Assembly: GCA_017440925.1 (NCBI GenBank)
Contig: JAFSAP010000068.1
Coordinates: 1 to 38,316 of the forward strand
Direction of reading: 5' to 3'
DNA length: 38,316 bases
Origin: Oscillospiraceae bacterium
GTDB lineage: Bacteria; Bacillota; Clostridia; Oscillospirales; Oscillospiraceae
Part shown: one piece after another, positions 13,291 to 21,575 of the stretch
Numbering within the stretch: position 1 is the stretch's first letter
Layout of the letters: every line of letters begins with the position of its first letter
Notes under the pieces: generated by a model
The model's input: only the letters and a program-made list of their open reading frames with translations
Databases searched by the model: none
What the model was told of the DNA's origin: nothing
Translations under genes and position numbers: made by a program

Positions 13291-13308
13291 GTAAGGGAAC
13301 TGAACAGT

Positions 13309-13417
13309 ATCTTCAGGGCGGGGTGTGATTCCCCACCGGCGGTAAAGTCCGCGAGCGCCTGTGCGCAGGAACCGGTGTGATTCCGGTACCGACAGTAAAG
13401 TCTGGATGGAAGAAGAT
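13309..13417 (+). ncRNA. FMN riboswitch (RFN element)
   Basis: The aptamer is closed by P1 (ATCTTC at 13309-13314 with GAAGAT at 13412-13417). The conserved RFN blocks are present: AGGGCGGGGTGTGATTCCCC, CGGCGGTAAAGTCCGCGAGC, and the later GTGTGATTCCGGTACCGACA with AGTCTGGATGG. It binds flavin mononucleotide in the nascent mRNA. It sits between a strong promoter and ribU, so high FMN should switch the transporter off. Confidence 0.95.
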
Positions 13418-13445
13418 ATGCTGCAAAGCCGTGCCTTTGTTTTTC

Positions 13446-13482
13446 ACGCCCTGGGTGTATGCTCAGGGCGTATTCTGTTTTT
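13446..13482 (+). terminator. Riboswitch-controlled terminator upstream of ribU
   Basis: An 8-bp stem (13446-13453 with 13464-13471) is followed by ATTCTGTTTTTTG. The ribU ribosome binding site GAGGTG follows at once. This is the expected expression platform of the FMN riboswitch. Confidence 0.75.
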
Positions 13483-13494
13483 GAGGTGACGCAT

Positions 13495-14214
13495 ATGAAT
13501 GGACTGTTGATGCAGCTGTGGGAAAACCTAAGCTTTGTGCTGATGTGTATTCTGGTGATTTTCGCTCTGGCTGTTGCGGCAAAATTCTCCGAGCAGTATT
13601 TCCCTGAAAAACGCAAAGTCAGCAAGGCCCGGTATGTCAGCATTGTGGGCATCTGCGCTGCCATTGCCACTGTGCTCCATGTACTGGACTTCCCTGTGCT
13701 GTTCCTGGCTCCGGAATTTTATAAGCTGGACTTTTCCGAGCTGCCGGTCCTGCTCTGCGGCTTCTACCTGGGTCCCACTGCCACCGTCGCCTGCGAGGGT
13801 GTAAAGATCCTGCTGAAGCTGGTGGTAAAAGGCACTTCCACCGCTTTTGTGGGAGATTTTGCCAATTTTGTTGTGGGCTGCAGTTTTGTTCTTCCGGCCA
13901 CCATCTGGTATCATGTTCACAAATCCAAGCACAGCGCCGTTATTGGTCTGATCCTGGGCACACTGTCCATGGCTATCCTTGGCAGTGCCTTCAACGCTGT
14001 CTATCTGCTGCCGAAATTCTCCCAGCTGTTTGGTCTGCCTCTGGATACGATTATCGGTATGGGCACCGCCATCCGGGGCGGCGTCAACAGCGTCACCACC
14101 TTTGTAATGCTGTGTGTGGCACCGCTGAACCTGCTGAAAGGTGCCATGGTTTCCGTTCTGACCATGCTGCTGTACAAGCGGGTAGCAAAACCCCTCTTCG
14201 GTATCCGCAAATAA
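13495..14214 (+). CDS. ribU: Riboflavin transporter RibU (ECF S component)
   Basis: A 239-residue membrane protein with about six hydrophobic segments, the size and pattern of ECF-type substrate-binding S components. The segment FLAPEFYKLDFSELPVLLCG is the typical RibU region. It captures riboflavin and pairs with a shared energising EcfA-EcfT module not found in this window. The upstream FMN riboswitch supports riboflavin as substrate. The start at 13495 is preceded by GAGGTG and makes the N-terminus fit. Confidence 0.92.
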   Translation: MNGLLMQLWENLSFVLMCILVIFALAVAAKFSEQYFPEKRKVSKARYVSIVGICAAIATVLHVLDFPVLFLAPEFYKLDFSELPVLLCGFYLGPTATVACEGVKILLKLVVKGTSTAFVGDFANFVVGCSFVLPATIWYHVHKSKHSAVIGLILGTLSMAILGSAFNAVYLLPKFSQLFGLPLDTIIGMGTAIRGGVNSVTTFVMLCVAPLNLLKGAMVSVLTMLLYKRVAKPLFGIRK

Positions 14215-14290: not shown

Positions 14291-14319
14291 TTGACACTTT
14301 TGTGAAAAATGATTATAAT
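14291..14319 (+). promoter_or_regulatory. Perfect-consensus promoter of the flavoprotein/aconitase X operon
   Basis: TTGACA (14291-14296), a 17-nt spacer and TATAAT (14314-14319) match the sigma-A consensus exactly. No clear operator or riboswitch lies between it and the start at 14358. Confidence 0.85.
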
Positions 14320-14357
14320 TTTATCAGAATCACAAATACAAAGGAGTGGAATATCCT

Positions 14358-16427
14358 ATGGATGCCAAATATGATGCCCTGTTTACCCCCTGGAAGATCG
14401 GCAATGTGGAGATCAAAAACCGCATCGTCCTGTGTCCCATGGGCGGCACTTCCCTGTTCGGCTGGTTTGAGCTGACAGGCTGCAAGTTCGACAAGGAAGC
14501 TGCCAAGTTTTTCCTGGAGCGGGCCAACAACAATGTAGGCCTCATCATCCCCGGTATCGCGCCCCTGCGGGATACCATCTGGGGTAAGTGGCTGTGGCAG
14601 AACGAAGCCATGTTCGATGAACTGAAGGTCTTTATGGATGAAATCCACAAGACCGGTGCCAAGCTGTTCATCCAGCTCACCGCCGGTATGGGCCGCAGCT
14701 GGGCCATCACCGACCACATTGCACCTCTGCATAAAAACAAGGTGCTGCGTAAGATCATCAAGCCTGTTCTGGATACCAGTCACGAGCTGGCCAGCCCCAG
14801 TGAGCTGCCTTCCCGGTGGGATCCTTCCATCACCACCCCCGCCATGACCATCGAGCAGATCCACGAACTCATTGAAGCCTTCGCCAAAACTGCCGCCCTG
14901 TGCAAAAAAGCAGGTGTCGACGGTGTGGAAGTCCACGCTGTTCACGAAGGTTATCTGCTGGACCAGTTCACCATGGAATGGACCAACAAGCGCACTGATG
15001 AATACGGCGGCAGCTTTGAAAACCGCTACCGTCTGCCTGTGGAGATCGTCAAGGCCATTAAGGAAGCCTGCGGCGAGGATTTCCCTGTCTCTCTGCGTTA
15101 CTCCGTAGAATCCAAGGTCAAGGGTTTCTGTGAGGGTGCTGTTCCCGGTGAAGTTTACACCGAGGTGGGCCGCAGCATGGCAGAATCCGAAAAAGCTGCC
15201 AAATACCTGCAGGATGCAGGCTACGATATGCTGAATGCTGACAACGGTACCTATGACAGCTGGTACTGGGCACACCCGCCTATGTACATGCCCCAGAACT
15301 GCAACCTGGAGGATGTTTCCCACATCAAGCAGTTCGTGGACATTCCTGTGGTCTGCGCCGGACGTATGGAACCGGATGTGGGTGCCTGGGCCGTGGCAGA
15401 GGGTAAGATCGATGCTGTGGGCGTTGCCCGTCAGTTCCTGGCGGATGGCGAATGGATCACCAAGATGATCGAAGAGCGGGAAGCCGATATCCGTCCCTGC
15501 ATCTGCTGCCACAATGGCTGCTTCAACTTCTGCAGCTACAAGGGTCACGCCAACGACCAGAGCCTGTTCGACACCATGGGTCTGGCCCGCTGCGCCATCA
15601 ACCCCGAAACCATGCAGAGCCGTAAATACAAAATCAAGCCCGCCAGAAGAAAGAAGACCATCGCCATCATCGGCGGCGGCATCGGCGGTATGGAGACTGC
15701 ACTGGTCTGCGCCAAGCGGGGCCATAAGGTCACCATTTACGAAAAGTCCAACGAGCTGGGCGGTGTGTTCATTGCCGCTGCCGCTCCCTCCTTTAAGGAA
15801 AAGGACAAGGCTCTCATTGCCTGGTACAAGCGGGAGCTGACCAAGTACCCCATTGAAGTGAAGCTGAACGCCGAAGTCAGCGACATTTCCAAGATCACCG
15901 CCGACGAGATCGTCGTCGCCACCGGATCCAAGCCCATTACGCTGGAACTGCCCGGCTTTGAAAAGGGCATCCAGGCCATCGACTTCCTCCGTGGACGGCA
16001 GGAAGTGGGTGAAAATGTCACCATTATCGGCGGCGGCCTGACCGGCTGTGAAATTGCCTACGAGCTGTACCTGCAGGGCAAAAAGCCCACCATCGTGGAG
16101 ATGAAGGACGATCTGATCGCCGTGACCGGTGTCTGCCTGGCAAACTCCAGCTATCTGCGTGACTTCTTCAAGGCCAACAAGGTTCCTGTCCATCTGGAAA
16201 CCCGGCTGGTGGAGATCCAGGACGGCAACGTTCTGGTGAAAGACCGCAACGGTGTGGAATTCAAGATCCCTGCGGACTCTGTGATCCTCTCTGTGGGCTA
16301 CACCTCCAACCCCGTGGCAAAAAAGACCAAGGAAAAGAAGAACATCCATCTGGTAGGTGACTGCGATAAGGTGGGCAATCTGCGCACCGTTATCTGGCAG
16401 GCCTGGGATGTGGCAATGAAGCTGTAA
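14358..16427 (+). CDS. FMN/FAD/4Fe-4S oxidoreductase, enoate-reductase/old-yellow-enzyme family
   Basis: A 689-residue cytoplasmic flavoenzyme with the architecture of 2-enoate reductase, 2,4-dienoyl-CoA reductase and BaiCD-type enzymes. The N-terminal TIM barrel (about residues 1-375) binds FMN and has HAVHEGYLLDQF and the NKRTDEYGGSFENR motif. The 4Fe-4S site is CICCHNGC plus the later Cys in RCAINPE. The C-terminal part has an FAD loop GGGIGGME and a second dinucleotide loop GGGLTGCE. Such enzymes take electrons from NAD(P)H to reduce an activated C=C bond. The ATG at 14358 has AAGGAG 11 nt upstream; an in-frame GTG lies at 14346. The substrate is not known; the aconitase X genes downstream suggest an unsaturated dehydration product. 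Confidence 0.88.
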   Translation: MDAKYDALFTPWKIGNVEIKNRIVLCPMGGTSLFGWFELTGCKFDKEAAKFFLERANNNVGLIIPGIAPLRDTIWGKWLWQNEAMFDELKVFMDEIHKTGAKLFIQLTAGMGRSWAITDHIAPLHKNKVLRKIIKPVLDTSHELASPSELPSRWDPSITTPAMTIEQIHELIEAFAKTAALCKKAGVDGVEVHAVHEGYLLDQFTMEWTNKRTDEYGGSFENRYRLPVEIVKAIKEACGEDFPVSLRYSVESKVKGFCEGAVPGEVYTEVGRSMAESEKAAKYLQDAGYDMLNADNGTYDSWYWAHPPMYMPQNCNLEDVSHIKQFVDIPVVCAGRMEPDVGAWAVAEGKIDAVGVARQFLADGEWITKMIEEREADIRPCICCHNGCFNFCSYKGHANDQSLFDTMGLARCAINPETMQSRKYKIKPARRKKTIAIIGGGIGGMETALVCAKRGHKVTIYEKSNELGGVFIAAAAPSFKEKDKALIAWYKRELTKYPIEVKLNAEVSDISKITADEIVVATGSKPITLELPGFEKGIQAIDFLRGRQEVGENVTIIGGGLTGCEIAYELYLQGKKPTIVEMKDDLIAVTGVCLANSSYLRDFFKANKVPVHLETRLVEIQDGNVLVKDRNGVEFKIPADSVILSVGYTSNPVAKKTKEKKNIHLVGDCDKVGNLRTVIWQAWDVAMKL

Positions 16428-16454
16428 TTGTGCTGCCCCGAAAGGAGAATCCCC

Positions 16455-16742
16455 ATGAAAAATGCCTATCCCCACACCGGGAAATGGCTGCGGGAGTGGT
16501 TTCCCGAGCAGACCAGAAGCATTCCCAGTATTATCGTGTGGACGATCATCTATATTCTGGATGTAGGTTTGGTTTTCTGGCTGGCCGCAAAACTGGGGAT
16601 CTCCATACTGGATTTCCACCACCAAACACAGACAGTGGTCATAGGCGTGTATCTTGTGATCGCACTGGCACTGTTCTGGCTGGAAACCGCCATTTATAAC
16701 CGGATCACAAAAGCGATCCGCGACCATAATACCCTCGACTGA
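16455..16742 (+). CDS. Small two-helix membrane protein of unknown function
   Basis: A 95-residue protein with two predicted membrane helices (about residues 23-46 and 55-77), a basic/aromatic N-terminus (GKWLREWFPEQTRS) and a charged C-terminal tail. AAGGAG lies 8 nt before the ATG at 16455, and an upstream in-frame codon at 16428 lacks such a site. It is 27 nt after the flavoprotein and 13 nt before the aconitase X large subunit, so it belongs to the operon. I recognise no family. It might anchor the soluble enzymes at the membrane or act as a small transport subunit; both are guesses. Confidence 0.7.
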   Translation: MKNAYPHTGKWLREWFPEQTRSIPSIIVWTIIYILDVGLVFWLAAKLGISILDFHHQTQTVVIGVYLVIALALFWLETAIYNRITKAIRDHNTLD

Positions 16743-16755
16743 GAAAGGAAAGACT

Positions 16756-18030
16756 ATGTACTTAACTGATGAACAGCAGGCCATACTGAACGGTTCCAAA
16801 GGCGAAACTCTGGCCAAGGTCATGAAGACCCTGGTCATGTACGGCGAGACCTTTGGTGCTGAAAAGATGGTTCCTGTCACCTCCGAATACAATCATCTGG
16901 TGACCTCCTTCGGCCTGAAAATGATGGGCCCCGTCTTTGATCTGATGCAGCAGCTCATTGATGGCGGCGCCGTTTCCCAGCAGAAGTTCTCCGTGGATCC
17001 CCGTCCCCTGGATAAGAAGGTTCCTGCCAACTTCCTGCAGAATTTTATTTTCAACAACATCATGTATGCCAAGCAGGAATCCTACGAACAGCAGCTGCAG
17101 AAGCTGGGGCTTATGAACGATGATGCCTTTACCTGCGCCTGTTATCTGGATCAGGTGGGCAATGCTCCTAAAAAGGGCGAGATCCTCAGCTGGGCAGAAT
17201 CCTCCGCCGTGGTTTACGCCAACTCTGTGCTGGGTGCCCGGTGCAACCGGAATTCCGGCATTATGGACATCATGGGCTCCATTGCCGGCTTTGTTCCCTG
17301 TTTTGGTCTGCTGACCGACGAGGGCAGAAAGGCAACCTGGATCGTGAAGGTGGACTGCAAGAATAAACCCGAGGCTCAGCTGCTGGGCAGCGCCATCGGT
17401 ATGAAGGTCATGGAGGATGTTCCCTTCGTCACCGGTATGGAAAAATGGCTGGGTACGGAGCTGAACGATGAAAACCGGGCTTATCTGAAGGATTTCGGTG
17501 CCGCTACCGCCTCCAACGGCGCTGTGGGCCTGTACCACATTGAGAATCTGACCCCCGAAGCCAAGGAACTGGGCGCTTCCCTGGTGGCTCCCGGTGCCAA
17601 GGTCTACGTCATTGATGATGCCGAGCTGGAACGGGTAAAGAACAATTATCCTGTTGTCTGGAAGGACAAGGATGCCAAGCCCAAGCTGTGCTTCATCGGC
17701 TGCCCCCACCTGTCCATGCAGCAGCTCATCGACTGGACTGTAGCCGTGGAAGATGGGCTGAAAGCCAGCGGTAACAAGAAGGTTCTGATCCCCACGGTCT
17801 TTACCACAGCTCCCGGTGTAAAAAAAGAATTTGAAAAGACCGAGTACGCCAAGCGGCTGGAAGCCACCGGCGTGATCCTCTCCTACATCTGCCCGCTGAT
17901 GTACATGAACAATCCTCTGGCAGGCAAAATGCCCGTCATCACCTGCTCCAACAAGCTGCGCACCTATACCACCGCCCGGTTCTACACAGAAGCAGAGATC
18001 CTGGCCAAGATCACGAAAGGAGGCAACTGA
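16756..18030 (+). CDS. Aconitase X large (catalytic) subunit
   Basis: A 424-residue protein of the aconitase X catalytic family (formerly DUF521). Known members dehydrate cis-3-hydroxy-L-proline in bacteria or mevalonate 5-phosphate in archaea, using an Fe-S cluster. Visible family features are AESSAVVYANSVLGARCNR (about 148-166), GCPHLS (Cys316) and YICPLMY (Cys379), with Cys127 and Cys129 in TCACYLDQ. AAAGGAAAG precedes the ATG. The small swivelling subunit is encoded immediately downstream, the split arrangement usual for many prokaryotes. The substrate here is unknown. Confidence 0.88.
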   Translation: MYLTDEQQAILNGSKGETLAKVMKTLVMYGETFGAEKMVPVTSEYNHLVTSFGLKMMGPVFDLMQQLIDGGAVSQQKFSVDPRPLDKKVPANFLQNFIFNNIMYAKQESYEQQLQKLGLMNDDAFTCACYLDQVGNAPKKGEILSWAESSAVVYANSVLGARCNRNSGIMDIMGSIAGFVPCFGLLTDEGRKATWIVKVDCKNKPEAQLLGSAIGMKVMEDVPFVTGMEKWLGTELNDENRAYLKDFGAATASNGAVGLYHIENLTPEAKELGASLVAPGAKVYVIDDAELERVKNNYPVVWKDKDAKPKLCFIGCPHLSMQQLIDWTVAVEDGLKASGNKKVLIPTVFTTAPGVKKEFEKTEYAKRLEATGVILSYICPLMYMNNPLAGKMPVITCSNKLRTYTTARFYTEAEILAKITKGGN

Positions 18031-18031
18031 T

Positions 18032-18475
18032 ATGCGTGAATTTGTAGGACGGGTCGTAGCACCCGGTACTGTTTCCGCCCCTGCCCTGGTTTCCCATGGC
18101 GGACTGAATACGCTGGCCTCCTTCCAGAAGGCGTTGCAGTTCGGTGACAAGAAGGCCACCTGCGGCGACCAGAATAACCCTGACCTGTACAACAAGCAGA
18201 TGGTGGGCAAGGCTTTGTGCCTGCCCCAGACCATCGGCTCCACCACCGGCGGTCTGGTGCTGTACTGTGCCTGCGCCATGGAACGCAACCCCGCCTGCAT
18301 GCTGTTCAGCAAGCCCATCGATTCCCTGGCTGCTGCCGGCTCCATCCTGGCCTCCGTCTGGCTTGAGGGCATCAACATGCCCGTTGTGGATTCTCTGGGT
18401 GAGGAATTCCTGGAATATGTCAAGGACGGCATGATGATCTCCGTTGGTGCTGACGGCCGGGTCATCGTCGAGTAA
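18032..18475 (+). CDS. Aconitase X small (swivel) subunit
   Basis: A 147-residue protein of the aconitase X swivelling-domain family (formerly DUF126). It has the conserved GRVVAPGTVSAPALVS opening (residues 5-20), a central segment LCLPQTIGSTTGGLVLY containing the Gly/Ser-rich loop, and IDSLAAAGSILASVW. It closes over the large subunit to form the active site. It begins 1 nt after the large-subunit stop, with AAAGGAGG upstream. A terminator follows, so it is the last gene of the operon. Confidence 0.88.
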   Translation: MREFVGRVVAPGTVSAPALVSHGGLNTLASFQKALQFGDKKATCGDQNNPDLYNKQMVGKALCLPQTIGSTTGGLVLYCACAMERNPACMLFSKPIDSLAAAGSILASVWLEGINMPVVDSLGEEFLEYVKDGMMISVGADGRVIVE

Positions 18476-18488
18476 ACTAAAAATGCGC

Positions 18489-18525
18489 AAAGACCGCAGT
18501 CGCCAGGCTGCGGTCTTTTGTTTTT
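18489..18525 (+). terminator. Terminator of the flavoprotein/aconitase X operon
   Basis: A perfect 11-bp stem (18489-18499 with 18508-18518) with an 8-nt loop is followed by TTGTTTTT. Confidence 0.9.
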
Positions 18526-18607: not shown

Positions 18608-19375
18608 ATGCGTGTCGTCATCAAAATCGGCACCTCCACGCTGACCCACACCACCGGCAACTTAAATATCCGCCGGGTGGAACAGCTGTGTAAGGTTATG
18701 AGTGATATCAAAAATGCCGGACATGAAGTGATCCTGGTATCCTCCGGTGCTATCGGCATGGGTGTGGGCAAGCTGGGACTGCTGGAACGCCCCAGTGATG
18801 TGCCCACCAAACAGGCCGCCGCTGCCGTTGGCCAGTGCGAACTGATGTATTTCTACGACAAGATCTTCGGTGAGTATCACCACATCGTGGCCCAGCTGCT
18901 GATCACCAACGAGGATATTCTCAGCGAAAAGCGGCACCAGAACTTCAGCAACACATTAAACCGGCTGCTGCAGCTGGGTGCCCTGCCCATTATCAACGAA
19001 AATGATACCGTTGGCACCAAGGAAATCGTCATCGGTGACAATGACACCCTGGCCGCTATCGTGGCAGAAAGCGTCAAGGCCGATGTTCTGGTTCTGCTGA
19101 CAGACATCGACGGTCTGTATACCGGGGATCCCAGAAACAACCCCGACGCAAAGCTGATCCATCAGATCACAAAGCTGGATGACTCCGTCATGGCATTGGC
19201 AGGCGGAACCGGATCCAACCGTGGTACCGGCGGTATGGTCACAAAGCTGCAGGCCGCCAAGATCTGCATGGGCTGCGGCTGCGATATGGTCATTGCCAAC
19301 GGCAACAATGCAAATAACCTGTACGACATCATCGACGGCAAGGATGTCGGCACCAGATTTACGGAGGTGCAATAA
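18608..19375 (+). CDS. proB: Glutamate 5-kinase (short form without PUA domain)
   Basis: A 255-residue amino-acid kinase for the first step of proline synthesis, L-glutamate plus ATP to gamma-glutamyl phosphate. Landmarks are [11 protein letters not shown] at the N-terminus, [17 protein letters not shown] and GTGGMVTKL near the end. It stops after the kinase domain and lacks the C-terminal PUA domain of the roughly 367-residue E. coli enzyme, as in many Firmicutes. AGGAGGG precedes the ATG. The stop codon overlaps the proA start by one base (TAATG), indicating coupling. Confidence 0.93.
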
Positions 19376-20601
19376 TGAAAACCATGCTGACCGCTGCCAA
19401 AGCAGCAAAAACAGAAATTGCCTGTCTGACCACGGAGCAGAAAAATGCGGCGCTCTGCGCCATGGCCGATGCCCTGCTTGCCAATGAGGCAGACATTCTG
19501 GCCGCCAATACCCTTGACCTGGAGGCCGCCAAAGGTACCGTGTCCGACGTTATGCTGGACCGGCTGCTGCTGAGTTCTGCCCGGATTGCCGGAATGGCGG
19601 AGGGTATTCGGCAGGTGGTGAATCTGCCCGACCCCGTTGGCAGAATTCTGGAGGAATATACCCGGTCTGATGGTCTGCTGATCCAGAAAACCGCTGTCCC
19701 CATGGGTGTCATCGCCATCATCTACGAAAGCCGTCCCAACGTCACCAGCGATGCAGCTGCCCTCGCCTTAAAGAGCGGCAATGTCTGTGTTCTCCGGGGC
19801 GGTAAGGAGGCCTTCCGCAGTGCAAACGCCATCGTTTCGGCTCTGAAAAAGGGCCTCGTCTCTGTAGGTATTACGGAAAATGCTGTCAATCTGGTGCAGG
19901 ATACCTCCCGGGATAGCGCTACCGCGCTGATGACCGCCAACGGCTATATTGATCTGCTGATCCCCCGGGGCGGCGCCGGACTGATCCAGGCCTGTGTCCG
20001 CACCGCAACCGTTCCCTGCATTGAAACCGGCACCGGCATCTGCCATGTATATGTGGAAAAAACAGCTGACCAGGCTATGGCGCTGAATATCATCGAAAAC
20101 GCAAAAACCAGCCGTCCCAGCGTCTGTAATGCGGAAGAGGTTCTTCTGGTGGATAAAGCCATCGCCAAAGAATTCCTGCCGAAGCTCCATGACCGCATCG
20201 GCGCAAAGGTGGAGCTGCGGTTGGACGAAACAGCCGCCGCCATCATTCCCGGCACCCCCGCAGGGGCAGCCGATTTCGACACCGAATTCCTGGACTATAT
20301 TCTGGCCGTTAAGTGCGTAGAGGATGTTCAGGAGGCCGTCGCCCACATCGCCGCCCATTCCACGGGACACAGCGAGGCCATCGTCACCTCGGACCCCCAC
20401 GCCGAAACGGTCTTTACCTCCGGTGTGGACAGCGCAGCCGTTTATGTCAACGCCTCCACCCGGTTCACTGATGGCGGCGAATTCGGCCTGGGCTGCGAAA
20501 TGGGTATTTCCACCCAGAAGCTTCACGCCCGGGGCCCCATGGGTCTGCGGGAACTGACCACTTACAAGTACATCATCCATGGCAAGGGCCATGTGCGCTA
20601 A
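19375..20601 (+). CDS. proA: Gamma-glutamyl phosphate reductase
   Basis: A 408-residue aldehyde-dehydrogenase-fold enzyme that reduces gamma-glutamyl phosphate with NADPH to glutamate 5-semialdehyde, which cyclises to pyrroline-5-carboxylate. The catalytic Cys is in [10 protein letters not shown] (about residue 252), and the C-terminal [25 protein letters not shown] is typical (shown across two motifs of the family). The length matches other ProA proteins. GGAGGTG inside the end of proB serves as its ribosome binding site. Confidence 0.94.
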
Positions 20602-20604
20602 CAT

Positions 20605-20745
20605 TCCATGTCCGCACTGCGCCACTTGCCCCTCCCAAAGGGAGCGGTGGCACGCCGTAAAGCGTGACGGAGAGGGGGCGCGTATTACCCTCTCAGTCAG
20701 CTTCGCTGACAGCTCCCCCAACGGGGGAGCCAAGTGCGATTAACC
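20605..20745. repeat. Dispersed palindromic intergenic repeat between proA and proC
   Basis: The ends are imperfect inverted repeats: a CGCCACTTGCCCCTCCC-like start and, at the right end, GGGGGAGCCAAGTGCG, which is the reverse complement of a similar sequence. Inside, GAGAGGG faces CCCTCTC, and two local hairpins are seen (CAGCTTCGCTG, and CTCCCCCAACGGGGGAG). This is the form of short non-coding repeats common in gut Firmicutes. No coding potential is evident. Confidence 0.6.
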
Positions 20746-20786
20746 ACCCCGACTGCATCATCATATCATTGCAAGGAGAAACTACC

Positions 20787-21575
20787 ATGAAATACGGATT
20801 TATTGGCTGCGGCAATATGGGCGGAGCCATCGCAAAGGCTCTGCGCCGCCAGACCCCTTCCATTATGATCGCTGATCCCGCCCCCGCCGCAAAGCTGCTG
20901 GCTGAGGGATTGGAGGCTGTTTACACCGATAATGAAACCCTGGCCGCTTCCTGCCAGCGGATCTTCCTGGCCGTCAAGCCCCACCTGATGAAGGGCATGC
21001 TGCTGCCTCTGCAGCCCATTCTTGCCGAAAAGAAGCCCCTGCTGATCACCATGGCCGCCGGACTGGAGCTTGCCACTATCCGGGAATTTGTGGGCTGTGA
21101 CCTGCCTATTATCCGCATTATGCCCAACACCCCTGTGGCTCTGGGCAAGGGCATGATTGCCTATTGCCGCAATGATCTTGTCACGGACGAAATGCTGGCA
21201 AGCTGGCTGACCGATATGAGCAGTTGCGGACGGCTGGACGAACTGGAAGAACGGCTCCTGGATGCTGCCAGCGCCCTGTCCGGTGCAGGCCCTGCCTATA
21301 TGTATGTATTCCTGGAGGCTCTGGCAGACGGTGCTGTGGCCTGCGGCATTCCCCGCGCCAAGGCTTACGAGTATGCCGCCATGACCATGTCCGGCGCGGC
21401 GGAAATGGTGCTGGCCACCGGACAGCATCCCGGCGCATTGAAGGATGCCGTCTGCTCCCCTGCCGGAAGCACCATCGTAGGTATCCGGGCGCTGGAAGAG
21501 CATGGCTTCCGGGGCGCCGTTATGGATTGCGTTATCAAATCTTTTGCAAAAAACAAGGAACTGGGCAAACAGTAA
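20787..21575 (+). CDS. proC: Pyrroline-5-carboxylate reductase
   Basis: A 262-residue enzyme that reduces 1-pyrroline-5-carboxylate to L-proline with NAD(P)H. The Rossmann loop GFIGCGNMGGAIA is at residues 4-16, RIMPNTPVALGKG lies in the middle, and the C-terminal dimer domain has GAGPAYMYVFLEALADGAV and the CSPAGSTIVGI segment. AAGGAG lies 8 nt upstream of the ATG at 20787. It is separated from proA by a 185-nt gap holding a palindromic repeat, so co-transcription with proBA is uncertain. Confidence 0.94.
   Translation: MKYGFIGCGNMGGAIAKALRRQTPSIMIADPAPAAKLLAEGLEAVYTDNETLAASCQRIFLAVKPHLMKGMLLPLQPILAEKKPLLITMAAGLELATIREFVGCDLPIIRIMPNTPVALGKGMIAYCRNDLVTDEMLASWLTDMSSCGRLDELEERLLDAASALSGAGPAYMYVFLEALADGAVACGIPRAKAYEYAAMTMSGAAEMVLATGQHPGALKDAVCSPAGSTIVGIRALEEHGFRGAVMDCVIKSFAKNKELGKQ

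Follow-up and report, generated by a model that had tools for sequence, protein, structure and literature searches.

A flavoprotein paired with aconitase X in gut Clostridia: a candidate module for CoA-free reductive beta-dehydroxylation

The window analysed here is a stretch of 38,316 nucleotides from an Oscillospiraceae bacterium. It carries an operon in which a flavoprotein (OYE) and a small membrane protein are followed by the two subunits of aconitase X (AcnX; Table 1). An AAGGAG ribosome-binding site precedes the OYE start codon, and the gaps between the genes are, in order, 27, 13 and 1 nt. The promoter, the four tightly spaced genes and the terminator of the original prediction are all borne out; the terminator stem lies just beyond position 18475, which had been given as the end.

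Table 1. Features of the operon, in positions of the window
Feature	Position	Strand	Basis or remark
Sigma-A promoter, TTGACA-17-TATAAT	14291..14319	+	12/12 consensus matches
OYE, FadH/enoate-reductase-like flavoprotein, 689 aa	14358..16427	+	ATG at 14358, stop 16427, Pfam
Small membrane protein, 95 aa	16455..16742	+	ORF; passenger in operon
AcnX large (catalytic) subunit, 424 aa	16756..18030	+	PF04412
AcnX small (swivel) subunit, 147 aa	18032..18475	+	PF01989
Intrinsic terminator	18489..18518	+	13-pair stem

The flavoprotein matches the PF00724 and Pyr_redox_2 profiles. It consists of an FMN barrel, four Fe-S cysteines (C381, C384, C388 and C412), and FAD and NAD(P) Rossmann motifs, and its Tyr199 aligns to the FadH tyrosine that we take to be in the active site. 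These are the features of the Fe-S flavin ene-reductases, the class of FadH and enoate reductase. The label "enoate-reductase-like" is a fair one, and the protein is predicted to reduce C=C bonds with NAD(P)H.

The barrel, the cysteines and the FAD and NAD(P) domains are common to FadH, 2-enoate reductase, 2-naphthoyl-CoA reductase, BaiCD and bilirubin reductase. Unlike these proteins (2-enoate reductase itself excepted from the comparison), the cassette OYE is linked to AcnX and has its own active-site signature, G[CTS]YDxWxxxHP plus HxxHEGY or HxHEGY. In the window the signature reads GTYDSWYWAHPP, starting at G297, and HAVHEGY, starting at H193.

Both AcnX subunits score above the cut-offs of their profiles (322 bits against 31.5 for the large subunit, 40.3 against 27 for the small) and so belong to the AcnX family. 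The large subunit also aligns to solved AcnX structures of both kinds (7cnr, E 2e-40; 7d2r, E 1e-18). Two AcnX reactions have been described, and several bacterial classes have no known function (PMC8184944).

The pairing of the two enzymes is found well beyond this genome. The cassette is widespread: one scan for relatives confirmed at least 563 stretches encoding an AcnX relative, of which 80 were kept, mostly from records titled as animal-gut MAGs. The gut commensal Mediterraneibacter glycyrrhizinilyticus is among the carriers (L108). In 76 of the 80 loci the gene immediately upstream of AcnX, in the same orientation, is the OYE gene. Three of the other four start at a contig edge (L034, L073, L082), and one truly lacks an adjacent OYE (L067). 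It had been allowed that the neighbourhood might be unique to one genome, which would have told against the original prediction; these loci dispose of that objection.

The genes also occur together in whole genomes. Among 60 related genomes, 17 have both, two have AcnX only (G005 and G032, both interrupted by contig ends), one has only an OYE fragment (G055), and 40 have neither (Fisher p 8e-12, with kinship ignored and many of the MAGs incomplete). OYE is also present in genomes that have the genes at separate places (G053, G517, G581, G539, G524), that have an interrupted cassette (G022), or that carry the genes on different contigs (G034). Such co-occurrence without adjacency counts against mere co-regulation. 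Five distant AcnX (L162 to L165 and L167; 37–57% identity) adjoin an OYE in other gene orders. OYE was not found by blastp to P0001 in the fetched surroundings of 15 other AcnX of the phylum, a check that left 8 further AcnX genomes outside. Judged from these sequences, the pairing is real.

The conserved unit is smaller than the operon. The original prediction named the membrane protein together with OYE and AcnX, and this needs correcting. The protein has no Pfam family, and at E 1e-3 blastp finds no match to it among the ORFs of 110 loci, besides the window's own (L001), nor in 40 further loci. Among the 60 relatives it matches, apart from itself, two proteins at 27% identity (G021 and G028), in genomes with no AcnX above cut-off. 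As a part of the system it was rejected: it is absent from every other cassette examined, and other inserts occupy the same gap. For instance, L080 has a 23S-IVS-type protein there, inspection by eye shows different ORFs in L042, L043 and L101, and G022 has an 831-aa ORF that was taken, also by eye, for a glycoside hydrolase. Since the membrane protein is found in no other cassette, and since the Pfam-scanned flanking genes are of many kinds, the conserved unit is OYE with the two AcnX subunits.

The OYE signature follows this unit. It is present in 70 of 71 full-length relatives, all 71 of which have CxxCxxxC, and in all 22 of a second set that includes the five distant proteins (three of the 22 duplicate loci of the first set). 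One of 20 paralogues has it. OYEs of 30% identity have the signature in common, and what these share is an AcnX neighbour. In four of the five distant partners (L162, L163, L165 and L167) Asp replaces the second Fe-S cysteine, so the electron path may differ there.

The AcnX partners are likewise a group of their own. The 34 OYE-linked sequences form one clade (support 100/100), set apart by a long branch from both characterised types. Residue roles were taken from PMC8184944 (sections 9, 11 and 12). All 34 keep the Fe-S cysteines C127, C316 and C379 as well as E148, S149, K400 and Y404; the window's large subunit also has S150, and S70 in the GSTTG of the small subunit is the putative general base.

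The archaeal mevalonate 5-phosphate dehydratase TkAcnX (Type IIb; PDB 7cnr/7cns) is similar in its two subunits, in its three Fe-S cysteines (C110, C283 and C342, corresponding to C127, C316 and C379), in Glu/Ser/Ser of the large subunit, and in Ser and Thr of the small. It differs in its phosphate site. The loop G48-V49-S50 is replaced by T50-S51-F52, and N79 by D81, in every row but that of L167 (33 of 34), and the N53 column is mostly Lys, with Asn in L165. AtAcnX (Type I) has the same carboxylate- and hydroxyl-binding Glu, Ser, Lys and Tyr, and its Thr72 matches Thr72 of the small subunit, where TkAcnX has Val64 (PMC8184944). Unlike the cassette AcnX it is one chain, and its S449 and C510 are replaced by C316 and L381. 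The amine-binding D203 of AtAcnX, which recognises the nitrogen of hydroxyproline, is replaced by V49 in all 34 rows. As predicted from these residues, the pocket argues against alpha-amino acids, 3-hydroxyproline included, and against phosphorylated acids like mevalonate 5-phosphate. By description, the cassette AcnX resembles Types IIc–IIf, which are bacterial, have two subunits and lack the landmark residues of either known activity. The function of these types is unknown, and section 14 of PMC8184944 mentions no OYE partner for them.

With a probability of roughly two in three, the operon encodes a CoA-free module for the reductive beta-dehydroxylation of a free 3-hydroxycarboxylate, acting as an electron sink of gut Clostridia. 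The direction, cofactor, product and physiological role that we infer are as follows. The AcnX large and swivel subunits would remove water across C2–C3 to give a 2-enoate, with the Fe-S cluster as Lewis acid and Ser70 as base. The FMN/FAD/Fe-S flavoprotein would then reduce the enoate to the saturated acid with two electrons drawn from NAD(P)H, NADH being the probable donor. The net reaction would be R-CH(OH)-CH2-COO- + NADH + H+ -> R-CH2-CH2-COO- + NAD+ + H2O, without CoA activation, and the reoxidation of NAD(P)H would make the module an electron sink. The core of the original prediction, that AcnX makes an unsaturated product for the flavoprotein, has strong comparative support from the adjacency of the genes, their co-occurrence when apart and the shared OYE signature; the two substrates it named are disfavoured, and the membrane protein is no part of the conserved unit.

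Several substrates were weighed: citrate (giving tricarballylate), carnitine (giving gamma-butyrobetaine), 3-hydroxypropionate, 3-hydroxybutyrate and aryl-3-hydroxypropionates. The pocket residues D81, R83 and F52 point to no single one of them.

AcnX might instead run the other way, hydrating a dietary or host 2-enoate or isomerising a hydroxy acid via the enoate, while OYE, in the same pathway, draws off the enoate in a side reaction or to detoxify it. Enzymes of the aconitase superfamily both dehydrate and rehydrate, but the two characterised AcnX are dehydratases (PMC8184944). An OYE with the signature, L202, stands near GH3 and GH106 (alpha-L-rhamnosidase-like) genes in a genome, G042, that is 98% complete and has no AcnX match, so OYE can act without AcnX. 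Flank clustering of the 80 loci and the window, however, found no transporter or degradation gene recurring beside the cassette beyond a few loci, and this alternative is unlikely. A cluster of 258-aa proteins from nine sources consists of ABC ATPases at varied distances. A search for a regulator or enzyme accompanying every cassette found none among the 80 loci; a MarR-like gene, for instance, lies upstream in five.

A role in one of the known AcnX pathways, acting on cis-3-hydroxy-L-proline or mevalonate 5-phosphate, the substrates originally named, is improbable. Apart from the alignment to both kinds of AcnX, its support comes from one genome, G235 (L164), in which the cassette has a proline-racemase-like gene as its neighbour, an OCD-family gene stands nearby, and UbiD is encoded as well. 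The decarboxylase of the mevalonate pathway is presumably of the UbiD type. The published account names UbiX as partner of the decarboxylase (PMC8184944). Among 15 cassette genomes, however, the proline-racemase family exceeds the cut-off in G235 alone (three more have matches below it), as does UbiD, undetected in the other 14, and OCD-family reductases in three (the PF02615 reductase family lay outside the search). The window's own genome, 68% complete, has no proline racemase. The racemase link in G235, a single case with a convergent gene, was set aside. The proB-proA-proC genes further downstream in the window could have tied the cassette to hydroxyproline, but this was rejected as a general feature because the proB cluster occurs in only 3 of 81 clustered sequences (the window, L031 and L082). 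Both substrates are disfavoured by the active-site residues and the rarity of these partner genes, and the long separate clade and the presence of OYE even when unlinked also speak against this role.

That OYE reduces an unrelated large molecule (a steroid, bile acid, bilirubin or flavonoid) and is merely co-regulated with AcnX has little probability. Its best NCBIfam models are BaiCD and long-form bilirubin reductase, the rhamnosidase-like and GH3 genes lie near its AcnX-less relative, and 3 of 80 loci have a gene for a CBAH-type hydrolase next to the cassette. Its scores are far under the cut-offs, however (BaiCD, 364 bits against 825; long-form bilirubin reductase, 360 against 750), and both the signature common to divergent AcnX-linked OYEs and the co-occurrence of non-adjacent genes stand against it.

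The pairing gives one of the AcnX classes of unknown function a concrete functional hypothesis, in which the field of substrates comes down to free 3-hydroxy acids. Should the module act as an electron sink, it would be relevant to the fate of hydrogen equivalents in herbivore hindguts. More tentatively, it is possible that gut Clostridia, chiefly those of herbivores, express the cassette strongly and constitutively, and that AcnX has here a third activity, in a CoA-independent pathway that would be new. The pathway would strip a single abundant free acid of its beta-hydroxyl, dumping electrons on it, and form a major unrecognised hindgut hydrogen sink.

The promoter of the window recurs in other cassettes. 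In the 200 nt that precede the OYE start, 20 of 85 loci, the window included, have a 12/12 promoter, against 1 of 1700 base-shuffled copies. Scores of at least 11/12 occur in 44 of 85 loci against 9 of 1700 shuffles; three loci duplicate the DNA of another, and without them the count is 43 of 82. Together with codon bias, compared against mechanically called flank ORFs of which some are not genes, these near-consensus promoters suggest strong expression. Sigma-54 control was considered and rejected: many loci of the main clade have sigma-A promoters, and a -24/-12 site was found in two (L164 and L167) of the five distant loci scanned. In both of these, the site stands after a PAS-type activator.

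Aconitase X (AcnX, with a large and a small subunit) and a flavoprotein resembling FadH and enoate reductases are encoded together in the window. The promoter, four genes and terminator named in the original prediction are all present. The flavoprotein is called OYE here in the sense of the FMN-barrel class, not of the yeast enzyme. Its cysteines are C381-x2-C384-x3-C388 plus C412, and Rossmann motifs lie at 435 and 554, the second followed by Glu581, a residue that generally favours NADH. The closest solved sequences are 6qkg (entry label NCR, presumably 2-naphthoyl-CoA reductase) and 1ps9 (2,4-dienoyl-CoA reductase, FadH); the top NCBIfam models, BaiCD and bilirubin reductase, both score far under cut-off. 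The genome comprises 1.92 Mb and is 68% complete. Among the matches listed in the contig scan, the closest relatives of its AcnX come from Oscillospiraceae MAGs.

Features of the operon and of the DNA on either side of it
Feature	Position	Strand	Basis or remarks
FMN riboswitch	13305-13421	+	Rfam RF00050, 113.8 bits
Membrane protein, ECF riboflavin transporter-like	13459-14214	+	by eye
Operon including promoter and terminator	14291-18518	+	sequence analysis, profile search
Promoter	starts 14291		12/12 consensus matches, 17-nt spacer
OYE/FadH-like flavoprotein	14358-16427	+	PF00724 and Pyr_redox_2
95-aa membrane protein	16455-16742	+	ORF
AcnX large subunit	16756-18030	+	profile match
AcnX small subunit	18032-18475	+	profile match
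Terminator	ends 18518		13-pair stem, downstream of AcnX small subunit
proB, proA, proC	18608-21575	+	after operon

A scan of genome contigs gave at least 592 stretches; an AcnX relative is encoded in at least 563 of them. In the best 80 of these at least 563, an OYE ORF lies upstream of AcnX, on the same strand and within 900 bases, in 76 loci, and the small subunit is present in 79. Of the three families in the original prediction, OYE and AcnX stay together, but the membrane protein has no match in any other cassette locus searched (a cassette being OYE with both AcnX subunits). In three of the four loci without OYE (L034, L073, L082), AcnX is no more than 250 bases from the edge of a contig, and the sole locus without the small subunit (L065) ends at a contig end; in L067 tblastn found no OYE despite 8 kb upstream of AcnX. 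OYE is broken into two ORFs in L049 and L109.

Pfam searches of 19 flanking genes and one gap gene returned glycoside hydrolases, regulators, transporters, peptidases, CBAH-type hydrolases and others. Besides OYE and AcnX, the clusters found in at least five sources (the 80 loci and the window) were three sets of large antisense ORFs, ABC ATPases (nine sources, at varying distances from the cassette) and MarR-like genes. Because the flanking genes are diverse and none recurs consistently, the conserved unit is three genes: OYE, AcnX large and AcnX small.

MarR-like genes lie upstream of the cassette in 5 of the 80 loci. A CBAH/choloylglycine-hydrolase-like family adjoins it in three, upstream in L074 and L075 and downstream in L104 (called by Pfam for L074 and L104, by cluster membership for L075). 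Unrelated ORFs comparable to the window's membrane protein separate OYE from AcnX in L042, L043, L080, L101 and L231; the ORF is 23S-IVS-like in L080 and, by eye, in L042, and others occur in L043 and L101. The AcnX of Erysipelotrichaceae and Lachnospiraceae cassettes (L097, L108, L051) is 76-78% identical to the window's.

The two families also occur together across genomes. Among 60 relatives, the window's genome included, AcnX passed the cut-off in 19 (16 of 37 genomes in the window's genus) and an OYE orthologue (at least 60% identity) was found in 17, all with AcnX. Counts of 17 with both, two with AcnX only, one with OYE only and 40 with neither give a Fisher p of 7.6e-12, uncorrected for kinship. 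In both AcnX-only genomes, G005 and G032, AcnX is at the end of its contig (3710 and 6229 bases long). The OYE of G055 is a fragment covering residues 1-139 on a 3709-base contig, and in that genome AcnX does not pass the cut-off; G049, counted as neither, has a sub-cut-off AcnX fragment at a contig start, the small subunit next to it and no OYE orthologue. OYE is present though not adjacent to AcnX in G053, G517, G581, G539 and G524, and is retained in G022, where an 831-aa glycoside-hydrolase-like ORF separates the two. In G034 the two lie on different contigs, OYE stopping 101 bases short of the end of one and AcnX beginning 155 bases into the other. Given the 76-78% identity of AcnX across families and its presence in only part of the window's genus, the cassette has probably spread by horizontal transfer.

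More distant AcnX can also be found beside OYE. In the phylum, 30 of 398 genomes have AcnX, two of them (G000, G053) in the main clade. Surroundings were fetched for 20 of the other 28, the eight left out all being strong Pfam matches. Five that share 37-57% identity with the AcnX of the window (L162, L163, L164, L165, L167) adjoin OYE, which is upstream in L164 and L165 and downstream in the rest; in the stretches fetched for the other 15 (24-30% identity), blastp to the OYE query P0001 gave no OYE-like ORF. In a maximum-likelihood tree built from 51 AcnX rows, a 100/100 branch sets apart 34 OYE-linked sequences (31 adjacent; L184, L193 and L201 with OYE elsewhere in the genome). Across it lie those 15, the archaeal mevalonate 5-phosphate dehydratase TkAcnX and the hydroxyproline-type AtAcnX, the branches being long and the placement of the last two inside their side unsure.

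A signature, G[CTS]YDxWxxxHP, marks OYE itself. Among full-length upstream partners 70 of 71 carry it, the exception being L095 with Gln in place of His; so do all 22 members of a second set including the distant five (three of the 22 repeat first-set loci), and 1 of 20 other paralogues from the same or related genomes. So it is common to AcnX-adjacent OYEs that are only about 30% identical overall. The one carrier among these paralogues, L202:5923-7917 (signature GSYDAWWWSHPP), belongs to G042, which has no AcnX match; GH106 rhamnosidase-like and GH3 genes are nearby, and its substrate may be a plant-derived enoate. The OYEs of L162, L163, L165 and L167 have Asp for the second Fe-S cysteine (CIGDQE[GA]C).

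The original prediction called for comparison with the hydroxyproline and mevalonate-phosphate types of AcnX; catalytic residues are kept, but the specificity residues of both are absent. With roles taken from PMC8184944, the three TkAcnX cysteines (C127, C316, C379), Glu148, Ser149, Ser150, Lys400 and Tyr404 are kept in all 34 OYE-linked AcnX, Lys400 and Tyr404 being aligned to AtAcnX only (Tk Lys361 and Tyr365 are outside the printed chain). Small-subunit Ser70 and Thr71 are kept too, with Arg for Thr71 in L165. In contrast, all 34 have V49 at the position of D203, which binds the amine in AtAcnX; the TkAcnX phosphate loop is replaced by T50, S51 and F52, and N79 of TkAcnX by D81, in 33 of 34 (exception L167). 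Asp also occupies the D81 column in 2 of 15 other AcnX. Types IIc-IIf, according to PMC8184944, are without either landmark set and of unknown function. Recognition of the substrate carboxylate and beta-hydroxyl is therefore retained, with the remainder of the site different, and because of this we infer that the cassette's AcnX substrate would be a free 3-hydroxy acid.

The simplest account, close to the dehydration and reduction originally proposed, is that AcnX would dehydrate this acid to a 2-enoate, which OYE would reduce with NAD(P)H, for a net oxidation of one NADH per substrate. A CoA transferase would not be required, and none was among the flanking genes scanned by Pfam. We know of no characterised pathway joining the two families. 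Weakly in keeping with this, no paper treating AcnX/DUF521 jointly with enoate reductase or old yellow enzyme was found in literature lacking most subscription journals; what was found on AcnX together with gut concerned archaeal isoprenoids.

Genes of known AcnX pathways are scarce in 15 cassette genomes with OYE confirmed, adjoining AcnX or apart. UbiD and the proline-racemase family each pass the cut-off only in G235 (the latter with three sub-cut-off matches elsewhere), and the OCD family in three. The only hydroxyproline-like neighbourhood is in G235 (L164), with a convergent proline-racemase-like gene and an OCD-family gene; near L167 are a glutamate-dehydrogenase-like gene, amidohydrolases and a PLP enzyme. 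Because of these neighbourhoods, distant members may act on amino-acid-related substrates, a reading not transferable to the main clade. L164 and L167 each have a PAS-sigma-54 activator and an upstream TGGCAY-N5-TTGC site.

A promoter with 11-12 matches lies within 200 nt upstream of OYE in 44 of 85 loci, the window included (43 of 82 without three repeat-DNA loci), versus 9 of 1700 base-shuffled copies. In 60 of 79 loci, codon bias of both cassette genes is above the median of the flanks (Wilcoxon p 2e-12; the flank ORFs were called mechanically, and as many as three loci are repeats); the cassette of L051 is less biased than its flank. This fits strong, constitutive expression of the pair.

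A proline link through the downstream proB-proA-proC was rejected as a general feature, the proB cluster occurring in only 3 of 81 clustered sequences. The RF00050 riboswitch and the transporter-like gene, which has its own terminator and no NCBIfam match at 1e-10, immediately precede the operon; L045 is the one further locus in which a member of the transporter-like gene's cluster stands ahead of the cassette.
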